A stretch of DNA of 49,789 nt, taken from NCBI GenBank assembly GCA_012518315.1, contig JAAYSL010000083.1, positions 1 through 49,789 on the forward strand. Direction: 5' to 3'. The notes under the pieces are model-generated. The model did no database searches. It was not told the DNA's origin and worked only from the letters and a program-made list of their open reading frames with translations. The first letter of the stretch is position 1. The number at the start of each line of letters is the position of its first letter. Source of the stretch: Bacillota bacterium (GTDB taxonomy: Bacteria; Bacillota; Limnochordia; DTU087). Below, piece by piece: positions 11,758 through 43,834 of this stretch. Both the position numbers and the translations under genes were made by a program.

Positions 11758-11793
11758 TCTGCGCAAAGTGCGGTTACAGGAAAGTTTGGTGAG

Positions 11794-21970: not shown

Positions 21971-22020
21971 ATGTAGTATCCTTGCCCTTAAGAATCTAGA
22001 AGAGGGAGGGCAAAGAGCGG

Positions 22021-23490
22021 ATGGGGATACACATGGAGCAGGGGCCTTTTCATGTTCATTTTGTTGGTATCGGTGGTATTGGGATGAGTGGGATAGCGAG
22101 GATCCTAGTAGAGATGGGGTGGCCGGTGTCTGGTTCTGATTTGGTCGCTTCTGAAAAAACGGAGTCTTTGGCGGCAGCCGGTGTTAGAGTGCATATCGGC
22201 CATCGTGAGGAGAACGTGGCTGGGGCCAAGCTAGTCGTTGTTTCCGCCGCTGTTCCCATGAATAACAGTGAGGTGCTTTTTGCCCATGAGCATGGTATTA
22301 GGGTAGTGACTCGGGCCCAAATGCTCGGGCGCCTCATGCAAGACAGATTCGGGATTGCCGTCGCCGGTACCCATGGTAAAACTACTACTACATCAATGAT
22401 ATCCTTGGTTTTGGAGAGACTTGGCTATGATCCTAGTGTAGTGGTGGGAGGCGAAGTCTTTGATATCGGCGGTAATGGCAAACTAGGTCATGGGCCACAT
22501 TTGGTAGTAGAAGCGGATGAAAGTGATGGCTCATTTCTGGATTTACCGGCTCAGATTGTAGTGGTTACCAATGTTGAGGCGGATCACCTAGATCACTATG
22601 CTGACCTAGATGCTGTCAGGGCCACTTTCCTGGCTTTCATGCGCCTGGTTCCACCCGATGGAATCGTGGTCAGTTGTGCCGATGACCAAGGCTTAGCTGA
22701 TCTCGTTAGCCAGCTTGACTGTCGCCACATAGACTATGGGCTGCAAAATGTGGGTCACTGGCGGGCTACGGAATTGCAGTTTTTCCCGTTTGGCTCCAGG
22801 AGCACGATTTGGCGTGGCCGAGAGAGAGTCGGCTGCTTGGATTTGCAGGTTCCGGGCAAACACAACATCTCCAATGCTCTGGCGGTACTGGCTGTGGCAC
22901 ATGAGCTGAATCTTCCCATTGGTGAGACCATGGCTATACTGGGTGAGTTTAGAGGTGTGGCCCGCCGCTTTGAGAAACTTGGTGAAAGTGGGAATGTACT
23001 TGTCATTGATGACTATGCACATCATCCCACTGAGATTAAGGCGACACTGGCAGCGGCAAGGCATTTACACCGACGGATTGTCGCCGTTTTTCAACCCCAT
23101 CGCTATACTCGAGTTGCTCGGCTTGTCAATGAGTTCGCCTCCTCGTTCTATGATGCCGACCAGCTCATCCTCACCGACATCTATCCGGCTGGAGAAAAGC
23201 CAATACGCGGCATCTCTGGGGGAGTTCTAGCTGAGGCAGTCTCCAAGTCAGGCCATCCCCGTCTAACGTACATCCCCCATAAGGGCGATATCCCCGGTTT
23301 CTTGGCAAAAACCGTGCTTAGTGGAGATGTGGTACTGACACTAGGGGCAGGGGATATTCGGGAGGCAGGAATAAAGTTTCTAAACTGGCAAAAGGAGCGG
23401 GTGGTATCAAAATGCCTAGAATACGAATCCATGGCCAACGGCCACTTGAGGGTCTTATCCCCATTGGTGGAGCAAAAAACGCAGTTTTGA
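22021..23490 (+). CDS. murC: UDP-MurNAc:L-alanine ligase MurC (cluster copy)
   Basis: MurC adds the first amino acid of the stem peptide. It has 489 residues with the Rossmann start HFVGIGGIGMSGIA, ATP loop GTHGKTTTTSM, EADESDGSFL, TNVEADHLDHY and the C-terminal IDDYAHHPTEIKATL and FQPHRYTR. ATG 22021 follows GAGGGAGGG by ten bases. MurC proteins usually end soon after TLGAGDI, but this frame runs on about 35 residues, so its last 79 bases overlap murA in another frame. A paralogue lies at 42374-43834. Confidence 0.93.
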   Translation: MGIHMEQGPFHVHFVGIGGIGMSGIARILVEMGWPVSGSDLVASEKTESLAAAGVRVHIGHREENVAGAKLVVVSAAVPMNNSEVLFAHEHGIRVVTRAQMLGRLMQDRFGIAVAGTHGKTTTTSMISLVLERLGYDPSVVVGGEVFDIGGNGKLGHGPHLVVEADESDGSFLDLPAQIVVVTNVEADHLDHYADLDAVRATFLAFMRLVPPDGIVVSCADDQGLADLVSQLDCRHIDYGLQNVGHWRATELQFFPFGSRSTIWRGRERVGCLDLQVPGKHNISNALAVLAVAHELNLPIGETMAILGEFRGVARRFEKLGESGNVLVIDDYAHHPTEIKATLAAARHLHRRIVAVFQPHRYTRVARLVNEFASSFYDADQLILTDIYPAGEKPIRGISGGVLAEAVSKSGHPRLTYIPHKGDIPGFLAKTVLSGDVVLTLGAGDIREAGIKFLNWQKERVVSKCLEYESMANGHLRVLSPLVEQKTQF

Positions 23491-24715: not shown

Positions 24716-24724
24716 TGCTATAAT
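24716..24724 (+). promoter_or_regulatory. Extended -10 promoter ahead of ftsQ
   Basis: TGC followed by a perfect TATAAT (24719-24724) forms an extended -10 element, 33 bp before the ftsQ ATG. No clear -35 is seen. It would give ftsQ-ftsA-ftsZ an internal promoter. Confidence 0.55.
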
Positions 24725-24756
24725 TGGGATGTAGCCGAGAAGAGGGGGGAGATCTC

Positions 24757-25473
24757 ATGCCCAAGGTGCGAGGCGGCTATTCCTTTGGCCTGTCACTGGT
24801 GGTGTTACTTTTGGTTATAGGCCTTGTCGGGTTTTTTCATTCCCCTTTCTTTACGGTGCAAAGCATTCAGGTTAGTGGTTCGAGCTATACAATGGAGAAG
24901 ATAGCTGATCTTGCTGGAATCAAGGTGGGGACAAGCCTTCTGAAGCTAGATGTGGAAATGGCAATGCGCCTTCTAGAACAGGAGCCTATCATCTCACGGG
25001 CGATTGTCCGTCGCCACTTGCCTGATACCATTCTTATCGAGGTGGAGGAATACACCCCCGTAGCTATGGTATCGGTTGAGACAGGGTTTTGGGGCGTGGC
25101 GGTTGATGGAACGCTTCTAGGCAGGATAGACCTAGGTGGTATCAGTCTGCCAGTGATCACCGGTGTCAATAGCGAGTTCTTGACTGTGGGCAGCAAAAAT
25201 GTGAGTGAATTGATGATGGCCGCCAACATTATCAATGGGCTGCCCCAAATGGCTAGGGATCGCATCTCTGAGGTGAATGTAAGAGACCGAGATGGGTTAA
25301 GAGTGATTAGTCGCAACCTAGTCGAGTTCTACTTAGGGGACCTGAGTCACTTAGCTGAAAAGCTTGATGCAGTGGTGGCTTTTCTGGCTAACCTCGAATC
25401 AGGACAGTTACCACCATACACAGTAGTGGATTTGTCCAATCCGAAACGACCCGTAGTTCGCAAACTGCAGTAG
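24757..25473 (+). CDS. ftsQ: Cell division protein FtsQ/DivIB
   Basis: This bitopic divisome protein has 238 residues: a short cytoplasmic tail, a membrane segment (SFGLSLVVLLLVIGLVGFF), a POTRA domain (FFTVQSIQVSGSSYTMEKIA and following, about residues 32-100) and an FtsQ/DivIB beta domain (EYTPVAMVSVETGFWGVAVD onward). It links FtsL/DivIC to the wall-synthesis enzymes. ATG 24757 follows GAGGGGGGAGA. An upstream ATG at 24724 in frame overlaps the -10 box and is unlikely. Confidence 0.88.
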   Translation: MPKVRGGYSFGLSLVVLLLVIGLVGFFHSPFFTVQSIQVSGSSYTMEKIADLAGIKVGTSLLKLDVEMAMRLLEQEPIISRAIVRRHLPDTILIEVEEYTPVAMVSVETGFWGVAVDGTLLGRIDLGGISLPVITGVNSEFLTVGSKNVSELMMAANIINGLPQMARDRISEVNVRDRDGLRVISRNLVEFYLGDLSHLAEKLDAVVAFLANLESGQLPPYTVVDLSNPKRPVVRKLQ

Positions 25474-25572
25474 ATAGTGAAAACCTGCTTGCCAAAAAGG
25501 GAATCAACCTAGATTGTGGAATTAGAAAGCAAAGGCAAATTGCTCCTTAATGAAGGAGCCTGGACAAACAGG

Positions 25573-26061
25573 GTGAAGATATTGCAAGTAAGCCGTTTAG
25601 CAGAGGAGCATTTGGTGGCAGGCCTTGATATAGGTACATCCAAGGTCGCTGTAGCTATAGCTGCAAAGGATGGTTTGGGCTCATGCAAGATCATCGGCGT
25701 GGGTACTGGTCTGCACAATGGCCTACAGCGGGGAGTTATTCGTGATACCGATGCAGTTAGGCAGGCTGTGACGGAGGCTGTCATCAAAGCCGAGAGAATG
25801 GCACAAAGGCCCATGCCACCGGCAGTAGTAGGTATACCGGGTAGTTTGAGTTCATCCTTTACTGCTCGGGGTACGGTTCCAATTAGGCGATCCGGACATC
25901 GTGTGCAAGCCGAAGATGTGGAAAGAGCCCTTGGCGCGGCCAAGGCTATGTCTATTCCACCGGGGCGGCGGGTAATTCACCGAATTTTGCGTGGCTTCTG
26001 GTTGGATGGTAGACATCTGCCAGGAGAACCAGTGGGCTTAGTAGGGCGGCATCTTAGGTAG
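25573..26061 (+). CDS. ftsA: FtsA, N-terminal part (gene interrupted by frameshift)
   Basis: FtsA is the actin-like ATPase that tethers FtsZ to the membrane. This part covers domain 1A and the FtsA-specific 1C (SHS2) domain: GLDIGTSKVAVAIA (phosphate loop), GLQRGVIRDTDAVRQAVTEA, VVGIPGSLSSSF, and RRVIHRILRGFWLDG. It stops at TAG 26059-26061 right after GEPVGLVGRHLR. Restoring one base near 26057 joins it to VEVQFVT in the next frame, as in intact FtsA. The start is uncertain: GTG 25573 lies about 14 bases after AAGGAG, and GTG 25516 is an alternative. Confidence 0.85.
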   Translation: MKILQVSRLAEEHLVAGLDIGTSKVAVAIAAKDGLGSCKIIGVGTGLHNGLQRGVIRDTDAVRQAVTEAVIKAERMAQRPMPPAVVGIPGSLSSSFTARGTVPIRRSGHRVQAEDVERALGAAKAMSIPPGRRVIHRILRGFWLDGRHLPGEPVGLVGRHLR

Positions 26062-26816
26062 AGGTGCAATTTGTCACCATAGCATTATCCGCTTGGGAGG
26101 AACTGACGAGTTTTCTGGAACAAGGGGATGTCGCGGTTGCCAAGATGACGGTTCAGTGCCTAGCCACAGCAGACATGGTATTAGCTCTCGACCAAAAAAA
26201 GTTGGGAGTTGTTTTAGTTGATCTTGGAGCAGGGTTGACTGACATTGTCGTATATCATGCTGACAAGCTACAGCATATGGCCTGCCTACCCATGGGCACC
26301 CGCAATCTTGCCCTCGACTTAATGATGGGTTTGGATATCACCTTGGAGGATGCTGAATGCTTAGTGCGAAAACTTGGATGCCACCTGTCCCCCGAGAATA
26401 TTGCCAGGTTTCAGGAAGGCTGGCAAGGTGATATTGGTGGCCGGTCTTTCAGTCTCGAGCAGTATGCCGAAATTTTCGACGCGAGGGCAGAGGAGATCTG
26501 GCAACTGGTGAGAAGTCAGATAGCGAAGGTCGGTGGTAACTCTAATCTGCAGGCAGGCGTGAGAATGGTGGGCGGAGGAGTGCTCATTCCCGGACTAAAA
26601 GACCTAGGGTCCAGCATTCTAGGTCTACCGGTGGATGCGTCACTTCCGGTAGAAATGGCGAATTTGCCCGAATCCTGGTTAAGCCCCGGGTATGCATCGG
26701 CGGTGGGGCTGGTTCAGCATAGGACAACAGGTCTATCGGCACTGCCCAAACCACGAACAAAGAAACCCGCGTGGACCGCTTTGTGGCCCAGGATACGTGG
26801 TTGGCTCAAGTTTTAG
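26058..26816 (+). CDS. ftsA: FtsA, C-terminal part (gene interrupted by frameshift)
   Basis: This frame opens at 26058 (codons for VEVQFVTIALS) and continues FtsA: CLATADMVLALDQKKLGVVL, VDLGAGLTDIVVY (second phosphate loop), VGGGVLIPGLKDL and a late basic-hydrophobic tail (ALWPRIRGWLKF) that could be the membrane-targeting amphipathic helix. The first available start is GTG 26064, which has no spaced SD. The two parts sum to about 415-430 residues, a normal FtsA length. So the gene is either intact in the cell with a one-base sequence error, or truly split. Confidence 0.85.
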   Translation, partial: VEVQFVTIALSAWEELTSFLEQGDVAVAKMTVQCLATADMVLALDQKKLGVVLVDLGAGLTDIVVYHADKLQHMACLPMGTRNLALDLMMGLDITLEDAECLVRKLGCHLSPENIARFQEGWQGDIGGRSFSLEQYAEIFDARAEEIWQLVRSQIAKVGGNSNLQAGVRMVGGGVLIPGLKDLGSSILGLPVDASLPVEMANLPESWLSPGYASAVGLVQHRTTGLSALPKPRTKKPAWTALWPRIRGWLKF

Positions 26817-26860
26817 CAACAGATAGCCGGTGGGTTCCGGTTCTTGGGAGGTAAAGGGAC

Positions 26861-27925
26861 ATGTTCGAATTCGATATGCAAGCTGGCCAGTTTGCCAATA
26901 TAAAAGTAGTTGGAGTTGGTGGTGGTGGGAGCAATGCGGTAAATCGCATGATCGAGGCAGAATTGCAGGGTGTGCAGTTTATCGCTCTCAATACCGATGC
27001 CCAGGCCCTACTACTGTCTAATGCCAGCCATAAGATCCAAATGGGAGAGAAACTAACTAGAGGTCTAGGTGCAGGCTCTAACCCAGACGTCGGTCAGAAG
27101 GCAGCAGAAGAGAGTAAGGATGAGATCAAAGCCTTGCTTGAAGGGGCGGATATGATCTTTATCACTGCGGGAATGGGTGGTGGAACTGGCACTGGTGGAG
27201 CACCTATAGTCGCGGAAATAGCCCGGGAAGTGGCCGCTCTCACGGTGGGAGTAGTGACTAAACCCTTTAGCTTCGAAGGTAAACGCCGTATGAAGCAGGC
27301 AGAAAAAGGAACCGCCGAACTGAAGGACAAAGTCGATACCTTGATCACTATACCGAATGATCGGTTATTACAGGTGGCGGAGAAGAAAACCTCAATCATC
27401 GAAGCCTTCCGTATGGCAGATGATGTACTACTGCATGGAGTGCAAGGCATCTCTAATCTGATCACAGTTCCGGGCCTAATCAATCTTGATTTTGCCGATG
27501 TGCGGACAATTATGACCGACGCCGGTTCGGCACTAATGGGTTTAGGCTATGCAACTGGTGAGAATCGGGCTGCAAAGGCTGCTAATATGGCGATTTCCAG
27601 CCCACTACTGGAAGCATCCATCGAGGGTGCTAAGGGGATTTTACTTAACATCACCGGCAGCTCTTCGTTGGGACTATTTGAGGTCAATGAAGCTGCCGAA
27701 CTAATCGCCGCCGCGGCCGACCCCGATGCCAATATCATCTTTGGGGCGGTGATCGATGAATCTCTCAAAGAGGAGCTTCGGGTCACGGTGATTGCCACTG
27801 GCTTTGGTGAACGCAGTGAAGCTATGGCAGATCAGGCTAACCGCCAGAGCATCAGAGATGACTTTGATATCAAGCCTTTTGCCACTGACGATCTGGATAT
27901 TCCGGCTTTCTTGCGCCGCAAATAG
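26861..27925 (+). CDS. ftsZ: Cell division GTPase FtsZ
   Basis: FtsZ is the tubulin homologue that forms the division ring. It has 354 residues. The tubulin signature GGGTGTG is at about residues 106-112, the nucleotide-binding start at [15 protein letters not shown], and the T7 loop around [12 protein letters not shown] short C-terminal linker ends in the conserved peptide [12 protein letters not shown] that binds FtsA. ATG 26861 follows GGGAGGTAAAGGG. It is the last gene of the cluster and converges on sigE with only 20 bp between the stops and no visible terminator. Confidence 0.97.
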
Positions 27926-27945: not shown

Positions 27946-28674
27946 TTACTCTAGTTTCTTGATCTCCCGCCTCAGTTTTTTTAGGATGCGCTTTTCCAGC
28001 CGTGAGATATACGACTGTGATATACCTAGACAGTCGGCAACTTCCTTTTGGGTTTTTTCCTCACCATCCTCTAGCCCAAATCTAAGCTTCATGATCCGAG
28101 TTTCCCGGGGGCTTAGTCGTTTTAGGGCACCCACCAGTAGTGCCCGATCAACTTCCTCCTCTATCGCCTTGGTGACATTACTCTCAACTCCCAGAATGTC
28201 GATCCAGCCGATCTCATTACCATCATAATCAGTATGGAGCGGTTCCTCCAAAGACACTTCGATCCGAGTCTTGCTATTGCGCCTTAAGAACATGCGGATC
28301 TCGTTATCTATACATTTGGAGGCATAGGTAGCCAGCTTGACATTGCGGCCTGGATCAAAGGTATTCACGGCCTTGATCAAGCCAATAGTGCCTATGGATA
28401 CCAGATCCTCAATGCCCACCCCCGAGCTTTCGAATTTGCGGGCTATATAGACAACTAATCTTAGATTGCGCTCAATTAAGGTGTTCTTGACGGCACTATC
28501 TCCTTGGCCAAGCCTCTGGAGTAATCGGCTTTCTTCTTCTGCCTCCAGAGGAGGAGGTAGTACTTCATTACTGCCAATATAGTATACGGCCGGTGGTTCG
28601 AGTCCGATTCGCTGGCAAAGGCGCAGAGCCATTATCCGCAAAAAAAGCGAGATACGGAGTCTTTTTCGTTTCAC
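27946..28674 (-). CDS. sigE: Sporulation sigma factor SigE (pro-sigma-E)
   Basis: SigE is the early mother-cell sigma factor, made as a precursor and activated by SpoIIGA. It has 242 residues. The N-terminal stretch (MKRKRLRISLFLRIMALRLC) fits the membrane-associating pro-sequence. Region 2 has SIGTIGLIKAVNTFDPGRNV and YASKCIDNEIRMFLRR. The SigE/SigK-type motif KTRIEVSLEEPLHTDYDGNE follows, and region 4 ends GISQSYISRLEKRILKKLRR. The start is GTG 28674, overlapping the spoIIGA stop (GTGA) with GGGAGGAGAG just upstream. It is inverted relative to ftsZ. Confidence 0.95.
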   Translation of the reverse strand: MKRKRLRISLFLRIMALRLCQRIGLEPPAVYYIGSNEVLPPPLEAEEESRLLQRLGQGDSAVKNTLIERNLRLVVYIARKFESSGVGIEDLVSIGTIGLIKAVNTFDPGRNVKLATYASKCIDNEIRMFLRRNSKTRIEVSLEEPLHTDYDGNEIGWIDILGVESNVTKAIEEEVDRALLVGALKRLSPRETRIMKLRFGLEDGEEKTQKEVADCLGISQSYISRLEKRILKKLRREIKKLE

Positions 28675-29642
28675 TGCCGCTCTCCTCCCAAGGTCGCCGG
28701 GGTGACTACCGGTGATGCAGAGATACTAGCTAGAGTGCCTTGCACGATGGCAGGGGGTATTAGCGCTTGGTATTCATTAGCCGGATCGAGCTTGTGATCA
28801 CAAATGGCGATAACGGCCTCACTGGTTGGTACAGATTGCCCGGAAATATCTACCGTCACCCCATCTGGTCGAAATCCAATGAGGATACCGTTTTTCTTTC
28901 CCAGTGAGGTATAGGGTATGATCCGAAAGCGGCTAGACCAATGTGATGACGCTAGAAGCTGGGTGAGAGCCTTCTCATCTCCGGCTTCTAGCTGATCCAT
29001 GTTTTTGGCCAAGTCGGGTGGTAAGAGTTTAGTCAAAAGGTCTTGCTCCAAAATGATGACAGGCACACCTGTTAATGGGTCAGTCAAATGATTGCCTGTG
29101 TCGATTAGTCCGATCACCCTAATGGAGGTAGGGCCAAATTGGATGTCTAGTGGCAGCTGATAGATGCGTCGCACCATTCTGTATTGCACAACCCCCCACC
29201 CTAGCTCAGCAATGACAAGGATGCCTGCCATGGCGATGAGTAAGCCGAGGAAAGTATTAGGTTTGGTGGGTGTGCCCAAAAGATAAGCAGCGGCAAGCCC
29301 AGTACCACCAGCACCAAAACCTAACCCGAGAAAATGTAGAAGAAGCCCTCCCAGGCGCCGGGGTGATACTGGGAAAAAAGCAGCAAAGAGCATAAGCACT
29401 GTAACTGCTAGAATAGTTGGTATGAAACGCAGTAAACCATAGTATGGAATGATACGTAAACTAGCTAGATAAAGCAACAGGAAATGCCCGGTGCCGATTG
29501 CCGCCCCCAAAGATAACCGTTGCCAAGTGGTTTCGGCCAGAGTGATGGCAGCGGTAGCCCACAGCAAAAGATAATCACAGACAAAATTGGCCACTAGATA
29601 AAGCATAAGGATATCCACATATACAACGTAATCAAGTCTCAC
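28671..29642 (-). CDS. spoIIGA: Pro-sigma-E processing peptidase SpoIIGA
   Basis: SpoIIGA is a septal membrane aspartic protease that cleaves pro-sigma-E when signalled by SpoIIR. It has 323 residues: an N-terminal half of about five membrane segments (starting YVVYVDILMLYLVANFVCDY) and a cytoplasmic protease half with the aspartic motif GLIDTGNHLTDPLTGVPVII. GTG 29642 follows AGGTGAGG. Overlap with sigE indicates coupled expression of protease and substrate, as in other spore formers. The operon runs opposite to its usual direction. Confidence 0.94.
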   Translation of the reverse strand: MRLDYVVYVDILMLYLVANFVCDYLLLWATAAITLAETTWQRLSLGAAIGTGHFLLLYLASLRIIPYYGLLRFIPTILAVTVLMLFAAFFPVSPRRLGGLLLHFLGLGFGAGGTGLAAAYLLGTPTKPNTFLGLLIAMAGILVIAELGWGVVQYRMVRRIYQLPLDIQFGPTSIRVIGLIDTGNHLTDPLTGVPVIILEQDLLTKLLPPDLAKNMDQLEAGDEKALTQLLASSHWSSRFRIIPYTSLGKKNGILIGFRPDGVTVDISGQSVPTSEAVIAICDHKLDPANEYQALIPPAIVQGTLASISASPVVTPATLGGERQ

Positions 29643-42373: not shown

Positions 42374-43834
42374 TTGGTACAACACATTCATATGATCGGG
42401 ATCGGTGGGGCAGGTATGAGTGCCATAGCAACCGTTCTCTTGGAGATGGGGTATAAAGTCAGTGGTTCAGATCTAAAGGATTCAGATGTGGTGAGTTCTT
42501 TAATGAGAAAAGGTGCAGAAGTACACATAGGTCACGCCGCTTCTCATGTAGCAGGGGCTAACCAGGTGGTTTTCTCGTCTGCGATTCCACAGGATAATCC
42601 TGAAATACGGGAGGCCAAAGGGCTTGGCATACCGGTTTTGCATCGCTCAGAAATGCTTGCCCGTATTCTCAACAATCATGATGGTATTGCTGTGGCTGGA
42701 GCCCACGGTAAAACAACAATTACTGGCATGATTGCCCACATCCTGACTAGCCTGGGGGTAGATCCCACGGTACTGGCCGGGGGAGAAATGCAGAATAAGT
42801 GTGTACACGCGCGCCTAGGGCGGGGTGAATATGTGGTGGCAGAGGCTGATGAGAGTGATGGCTCCTTCCTCCGGTATTACCCATATATCGCAGTCATCAC
42901 TAGCGTCGAAGCGGATCATCTAGAAAACTATGGGGGTAGGGCCCATCACTTGGTCGATAGCTATAAGGCATTCATAGCCAATATCAAGGATGGTGGAACC
43001 CTTGTGATCAGCCGTCAGGCTTATCTAGTCCTTAAGGATGCTATAGATCAGGCCAAAGGTAGATTCGCTGTCAGTGTCTATGGTCTGGACTACCAAATGG
43101 GACGTCCGCTGGAATCCAAAGGTGATCACCTCGGTGATAATTGGTTTAGGGATGGCCGAGAACTGGATTACAGAGCGAGTAATGTTCACCTGGCTGGCTC
43201 GACCTCCATCTTTACAGTGGACTATCAAGGGCGATCTTTAGGAAAAGCTAGGTTGGTGATCCCAGGTGCCTACAATGTTGAGAACGCCCTAGCCGCTATA
43301 GCGGTGGCACAGGCGGTGGGATTAACCTTTGGCGAGGTGGTTGGTGTTCTGGATGGTTTTCACGGAGCCCATCGCCGCTTTGAGTGGGTAGGTGCCGGAG
43401 ATGGAATTGTAGTCTATGATGATTATGCCCATCATCCCACTGAGCTAAGGAAAACGCTACAGGCTGCTAGGGAATTTGGACGGAGGGTAGTAGCTGTTTT
43501 CCAGCCTCAACGATATAGCCGTACCCAGCTATTGATGGAGGAATTCGGCCGTTCTTTTCAAGATGCCGATCTAGTAGTGGTAACCGATATTTATGCCCCA
43601 CCACCGGAAAAACCGTTACCTGGCGTCACTGCGGAGCGATTAGCCCACCTAGTTGCCCAGCATATTGGCCAAGATCGTGTACTTTATGTTGGAGACCAAG
43701 GTCACATTCCCGATGCTTTGCTCCCCCATCTAACCAACAACGATCTGGTGATCACGATGGGAGCTGGTGATGTTTGGCAGGTGGCCCATGCTGTTGTAGA
43801 GCGTTTGCAGCGAAAGGATGTCCAAGGCATGTAG
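42374..43834 (+). CDS. murC: Second MurC-type ligase (UDP-MurNAc:L-alanine ligase paralogue)
   Basis: This Mur ligase has 486 residues and full MurC motifs: IHMIGIGGAGMSAIATVLLE, GAHGKTTITGMI (Ala replaces the Thr of the usual GTHGKTT), EADESDGSFL, TSVEADHLENY, YDDYAHHPTELRKTL and FQPQRYSRTQ. It resembles the cluster MurC in length and layout but differs throughout, so it is not a recent duplicate. It may be the active MurC, a sporulation-specific copy, or a ligase for another amino acid. TTG 42374 follows GGAGGTG. It sits between spoIIP and the helicase operon. Confidence 0.88.
   Translation: MVQHIHMIGIGGAGMSAIATVLLEMGYKVSGSDLKDSDVVSSLMRKGAEVHIGHAASHVAGANQVVFSSAIPQDNPEIREAKGLGIPVLHRSEMLARILNNHDGIAVAGAHGKTTITGMIAHILTSLGVDPTVLAGGEMQNKCVHARLGRGEYVVAEADESDGSFLRYYPYIAVITSVEADHLENYGGRAHHLVDSYKAFIANIKDGGTLVISRQAYLVLKDAIDQAKGRFAVSVYGLDYQMGRPLESKGDHLGDNWFRDGRELDYRASNVHLAGSTSIFTVDYQGRSLGKARLVIPGAYNVENALAAIAVAQAVGLTFGEVVGVLDGFHGAHRRFEWVGAGDGIVVYDDYAHHPTELRKTLQAAREFGRRVVAVFQPQRYSRTQLLMEEFGRSFQDADLVVVTDIYAPPPEKPLPGVTAERLAHLVAQHIGQDRVLYVGDQGHIPDALLPHLTNNDLVITMGAGDVWQVAHAVVERLQRKDVQGM

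Follow-up and report, generated by a model that had tools for sequence, protein, structure and literature searches.

The cell-division protein FtsA, as represented by TIGR01174 and by PF14450 with PF02491, has actin-like lobes with an inserted SHS2 (1C) domain and a C-terminal amphipathic tail, and its gene lies directly before ftsZ. The textbook form of its second phosphate motif is DIGGG. In Bacillus subtilis FtsA is dispensable, as the cells grow and divide without it, though they are very long, and FtsZ and SepF suffice (PMC11790237). Isolated frameshifts in draft or metagenome assemblies and recent bacterial pseudogenes are also known, with a one-base indel in a single gene, preserved flanks and intact relatives. 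The gene described here lies in a stretch of 49,789 nucleotides (the window; contig C211 of an assembly of 2.72 Mb in 281 contigs) and is an ordinary ftsA with a one-base break; nothing points to a novel mechanism. It shares each of those features and differs from such cases in that a core division gene is affected and the break is not in a long homopolymer.

Profile searches identified the gene as that of FtsA, in interrupted form. The two pieces matched TIGR01174 with 104.7 bits (model positions 2-146) and 133.8 bits (150-370) of 371 positions; neither piece reached the cut-off of 175.85 alone, and there was no full-length match in one frame. As the two pieces jointly span almost the whole model, the assignment to ftsA is far beyond chance. 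The actin-like lobes and the inserted SHS2 domain are present (PF02491, 54.4 bits in the first part; PF14450, 66.2 bits in the second), in the domain order of FtsA, and the second part ends in an amphipathic-looking tail, WPRIRGWLKF. The gene is flanked by ftsQ and ftsZ within a dcw cluster that is complete, and the order is the same in G001 and G004, the nearest relatives, whose synteny with the window extends over most or all of its length and whose intact FtsA are 60-72% identical to each half of the window protein. Unlike FtsA elsewhere, the window gene is split over two frames, with one base missing. In the alignment, the window protein and its relatives have DLGAG in place of the textbook second phosphate motif, and DLGAG or close variants occur at this motif (26211-26260; family alignment A1) throughout the FtsA of this bacterial family.

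Direct reading of 25570-26820 with translation in all frames confirmed the break in the given sequence: ftsA runs in two frames from a TTG start at 25582 to a stop at 26814-26816 (Table 1). The first frame, encoding the N-terminal part, ends in ...GEPVGLVGRHLR (GLVGRHLR-stop), where TAG occupies 26059-26061. From 26058 onwards the -1 frame reads VEVQFVTIALSAWEEL... (VEVQFVTIAL...) and is open to 26816, in agreement with an earlier description, made from the DNA alone, of a first part closed by a stop and a next frame opening with VEVQFVT. TTG at 25582 is more likely to be the start than GTG at 25573, because the latter falls inside the likely ribosome-binding site AGGGTGA and because the relatives use the equivalent TTG, most of them with stops just upstream. 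Most FtsA family members in this bacterial family, the window gene included, use a TTG start. Recoding of TGA in the FtsA of the relatives was considered and rejected, as the TGA stops precede the true TTG start and none interrupts the coding frames.

Table 1. Positions of the two parts of ftsA, the junction and the adjoining features in the window.
Feature	Position	Strand	Evidence
Likely ribosome-binding site of ftsA, AGGGTGA	25570..25576	+	Sequence; same layout before TTG in relatives
ftsA 5' part: domain 1A plus most of the SHS2 (1C) insert	25582..26061	+	TIGR01174 2-146/371, PF02491 SHS2_FTSA 4-71/79
Site of one-base loss, likeliest in conserved Glu codon; two-frame junction	26055..26058	+	Protein alignment with 10 relatives, tblastn coordinates
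ftsA 3' part, -1 frame: end of SHS2, domains 2A/2B, C-terminal tail	26058..26816	+	TIGR01174 150-370/371, PF14450 1-127/127
ftsZ, intact, directly 3' of ftsA	26861..27925	+	TIGR00065 443 bits; 92-94% identical in syntenic relatives

The sequence-only reading had taken ftsA to be split by an apparent single-base deletion and had proposed a comparison with the gene in close relatives. This comparison covered ten ftsA-carrying genomes of the same family and four FtsA from outside it, and in 14 of 14 the protein was encoded in one unbroken frame. Collinearity was exact, which bore out the deletion. In tblastn with the intact FtsA of G001 and G004 (411 aa each), the frame 1 alignment took in residues to 159 and reached 26058; the remainder, residues 160-411, aligned in frame 3 with 26058-26813. 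No FtsA residue was missing or duplicated at the junction, as judged against the ten intact family proteins and by tblastn with G001 and G004, and therefore exactly one base had been lost. The codons of the first frame at this point are CAT CTT AGG TAG, and the junction codon thus reads Arg (AGG) before the stop. The same column has Glu in eight of the ten family relatives, Gly in the other two and Glu in all four FtsA from outside the family; Arg was absent from all 14. Because this column is Glu or Gly and never Arg, the lost base was probably within the conserved Glu codon, at 26055/26056. It had previously been held that one G added near 26057 would restore the frame with no residue lost. 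The loss of one base without loss of a residue held, and the position was probably one codon late, as a G placed at 26057, in the GG run, would leave the Arg; this placement is the less likely of the two.

Selection on the two halves was analysed with a maximum-likelihood codon model in which the window branch had its own omega, applied to the window, G001 and G004 for 19 genes and both halves of ftsA. The window-branch omega was 0.170 against a background of 0.247 for the N half (p = 0.34) and 0.276 against 0.300 for the C half (p = 0.78); in neither half was it above background, where relaxed selection on an old pseudogene would have put it. With both halves profiled jointly, omega was 0.24 with a 95% upper bound of ~0.33 (background ~0.27), and omega = 1 was rejected (2dlnL = 56). 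Of the family-invariant residues, the N half retained 34 of 34 and the C half 45 of 50. Both halves are still under purifying selection on the window lineage. Any broken state of ftsA would cover at most roughly 9% of the window branch, a figure derived arithmetically from the omega bound with evolution after the break taken as neutral (omega 1). The constraint on both halves and the kept invariant residues indicated that the break is either recent or absent from the organism. Together with the intact relatives, the exact collinearity and the Glu/Gly column, this constraint indicated an ordinary ftsA with one base missing from the assembled sequence.

The C half had gained 41 unique amino-acid changes in the window lineage versus 16 and 18 in two relatives (Fisher p = 0.003). 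Decay of the C half was rejected as the cause, as the codon model explained the acceleration by the length of the branch rather than by relaxed selection; the N half had no such acceleration. Separately, ftsQ (24724-25473) was found to evolve faster on the window lineage (omega 0.234 versus 0.088 in G001/G004; p = 0.008, uncorrected, in 21 tests), with 42 unique amino-acid changes versus 18 and 14.

To place the break among other genes, 285 kb sampled from this genome was compared with 1.03 Mb of relatives' DNA, mostly from G004 with one G001 contig. The survey returned 68 matches without overlap, which together span ~66 kb of coding DNA; 46.6 kb of this lies in the window. Within this homology-checked set, no gene other than ftsA was split between frames. 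The break is therefore a single, isolated event, and the otherwise clean contig points to a low rate of errors. Two other apparent frame changes, near 11766-11780 and 21987-22002, were discarded; they came from short ORFs of relatives lying opposite mraZ/mraW and murG/murC, which are shadows and not genes. A partial match on a contig of this genome (L056 on C205) was to an ORF without any sign of being a gene. The relatives' genomes that were located in a named collection are metagenome bins; most bear 'AS'-series isolate names, and one is named DTU087. From this naming style, the relatives are apparently for the most part bins of the 1600-species anaerobic-digester study, which used Illumina reads and Megahit assembly (PMC7038595). 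The bearer of this ftsA is apparently an anaerobic-digester-type bacterium, and the window may itself belong to one of those bins.

The ftsA of the window is best seen as an ordinary, single-copy dcw-cluster gene that lacks one base in the assembly. A ribosome reading the assembled sequence would halt inside the SHS2 (1C) domain, and the truncated product would have neither the second actin-like lobe nor the membrane-binding tail. A second intact ftsA was not found in the assembly, in which the other FtsA-family matches were an MreB on contig C193, named from reading of its sequence, and an FtsA-like protein of 741 aa on contig C208; a first scan of the contigs with the C half of ftsA alone as query gave no match. 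The 741-residue protein (L003, 817-3042) has a long C-terminal extension, and large FtsA-like proteins resembling it, with open frames mostly of 600-990 residues, occur in many genomes of the class.

Three origins had been suggested for the split, namely a sequence error, a very recent mutation or frameshifting during translation. The first two stand, and the last is poorly supported. The exact overlap of the second frame with the stop codon and the conservation of both halves are what one protein made by programmed -1 ribosomal frameshifting, or by transcriptional slippage, would also give. However, there is no X-XXY-YYZ slippery heptamer at 26031-26068 and no run longer than three near the site, and a slip by one base on CAT CTT AGG would mean re-pairing with unrelated codons. 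Downstream RNA structure was unremarkable (z = -0.31, with 70 of 200 shuffles folding equally well, in a test of pseudoknot-free folds), the shift occurs in none of the 14 relatives, and the product would bear Arg at the Glu/Gly position. We therefore regard such recoding at the junction as exceedingly unlikely. Read-through of TAG was rejected because the frame would stay unrestored. Re-initiation at an in-frame GTG (26064), two bases past the stop and preceded by AGG, could instead yield two polypeptides that assemble into a working FtsA. The cut falls within the last part of SHS2, where the PF02491 match ends at 71 of 79 positions, an unfavourable position for a natural split; in none of the relatives is ftsA split, and the AGG is a weak site that compares poorly with those preceding ftsA and ftsZ, making this arrangement very unlikely. 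It is highly improbable that this FtsA is genuinely two interacting polypeptides or is made by a frameshift at a site lacking known slippery signals, and functional recoding and a two-piece arrangement have, even jointly, a small chance at most.

We consider it rather likely, and the most likely reading, that the missing base is a consensus error of sequencing or assembly in a metagenome bin and that the cells carry an intact gene. The fragmented state of the 281-contig assembly and the metagenomic origin of its relatives count in favour of this, and some observations count against it. The longest run near the break is three, and a sequencing error is therefore less typical there; the otherwise clean surroundings of the contig and the Illumina data behind the digester bins, if the window is one of them, weigh in the same direction. 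Next in rank is a real, very recent frameshift, which we hold to be possible, if doubtful: the population or its dominant strain would be without full-length FtsA, with SepF anchoring FtsZ, or the gene would be in the course of being lost. Loss of a single base outside a homopolymer is what a true mutation typically looks like, and the excess of unique changes in the C half could be read likewise. In addition, the genome has a sepF gene (contig C73, 86 bits), and this, with the precedent of B. subtilis, means that a real loss of ftsA would be survivable. Against a real mutation, the codon model detected no relaxation, only a small part of the branch could be free of selection, and ftsA is intact in every relative of the family, so that its loss is no trend in the group.

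The break matters mainly for annotation: a gene caller would give two FtsA fragments for this sequence, and loss of FtsA in the lineage might be wrongly inferred from them. If the deletion were real and fixed, the organism would be a natural example of a sporulation-type Firmicute with SepF alone anchoring the Z-ring.

Two further features of the window were observed. In Bacillus, sigE and spoIIGA are co-oriented with ftsZ. Here, sigE and spoIIGA (27946-29642) are encoded on the other strand from ftsZ and sigG and converge with ftsZ, an arrangement kept in G001 and G004. The window also has two murC-like ligase genes, at 22021-23490 and 42374-43834, which are about 41-42% identical, and the second of these may encode a specialised or recycling ligase.
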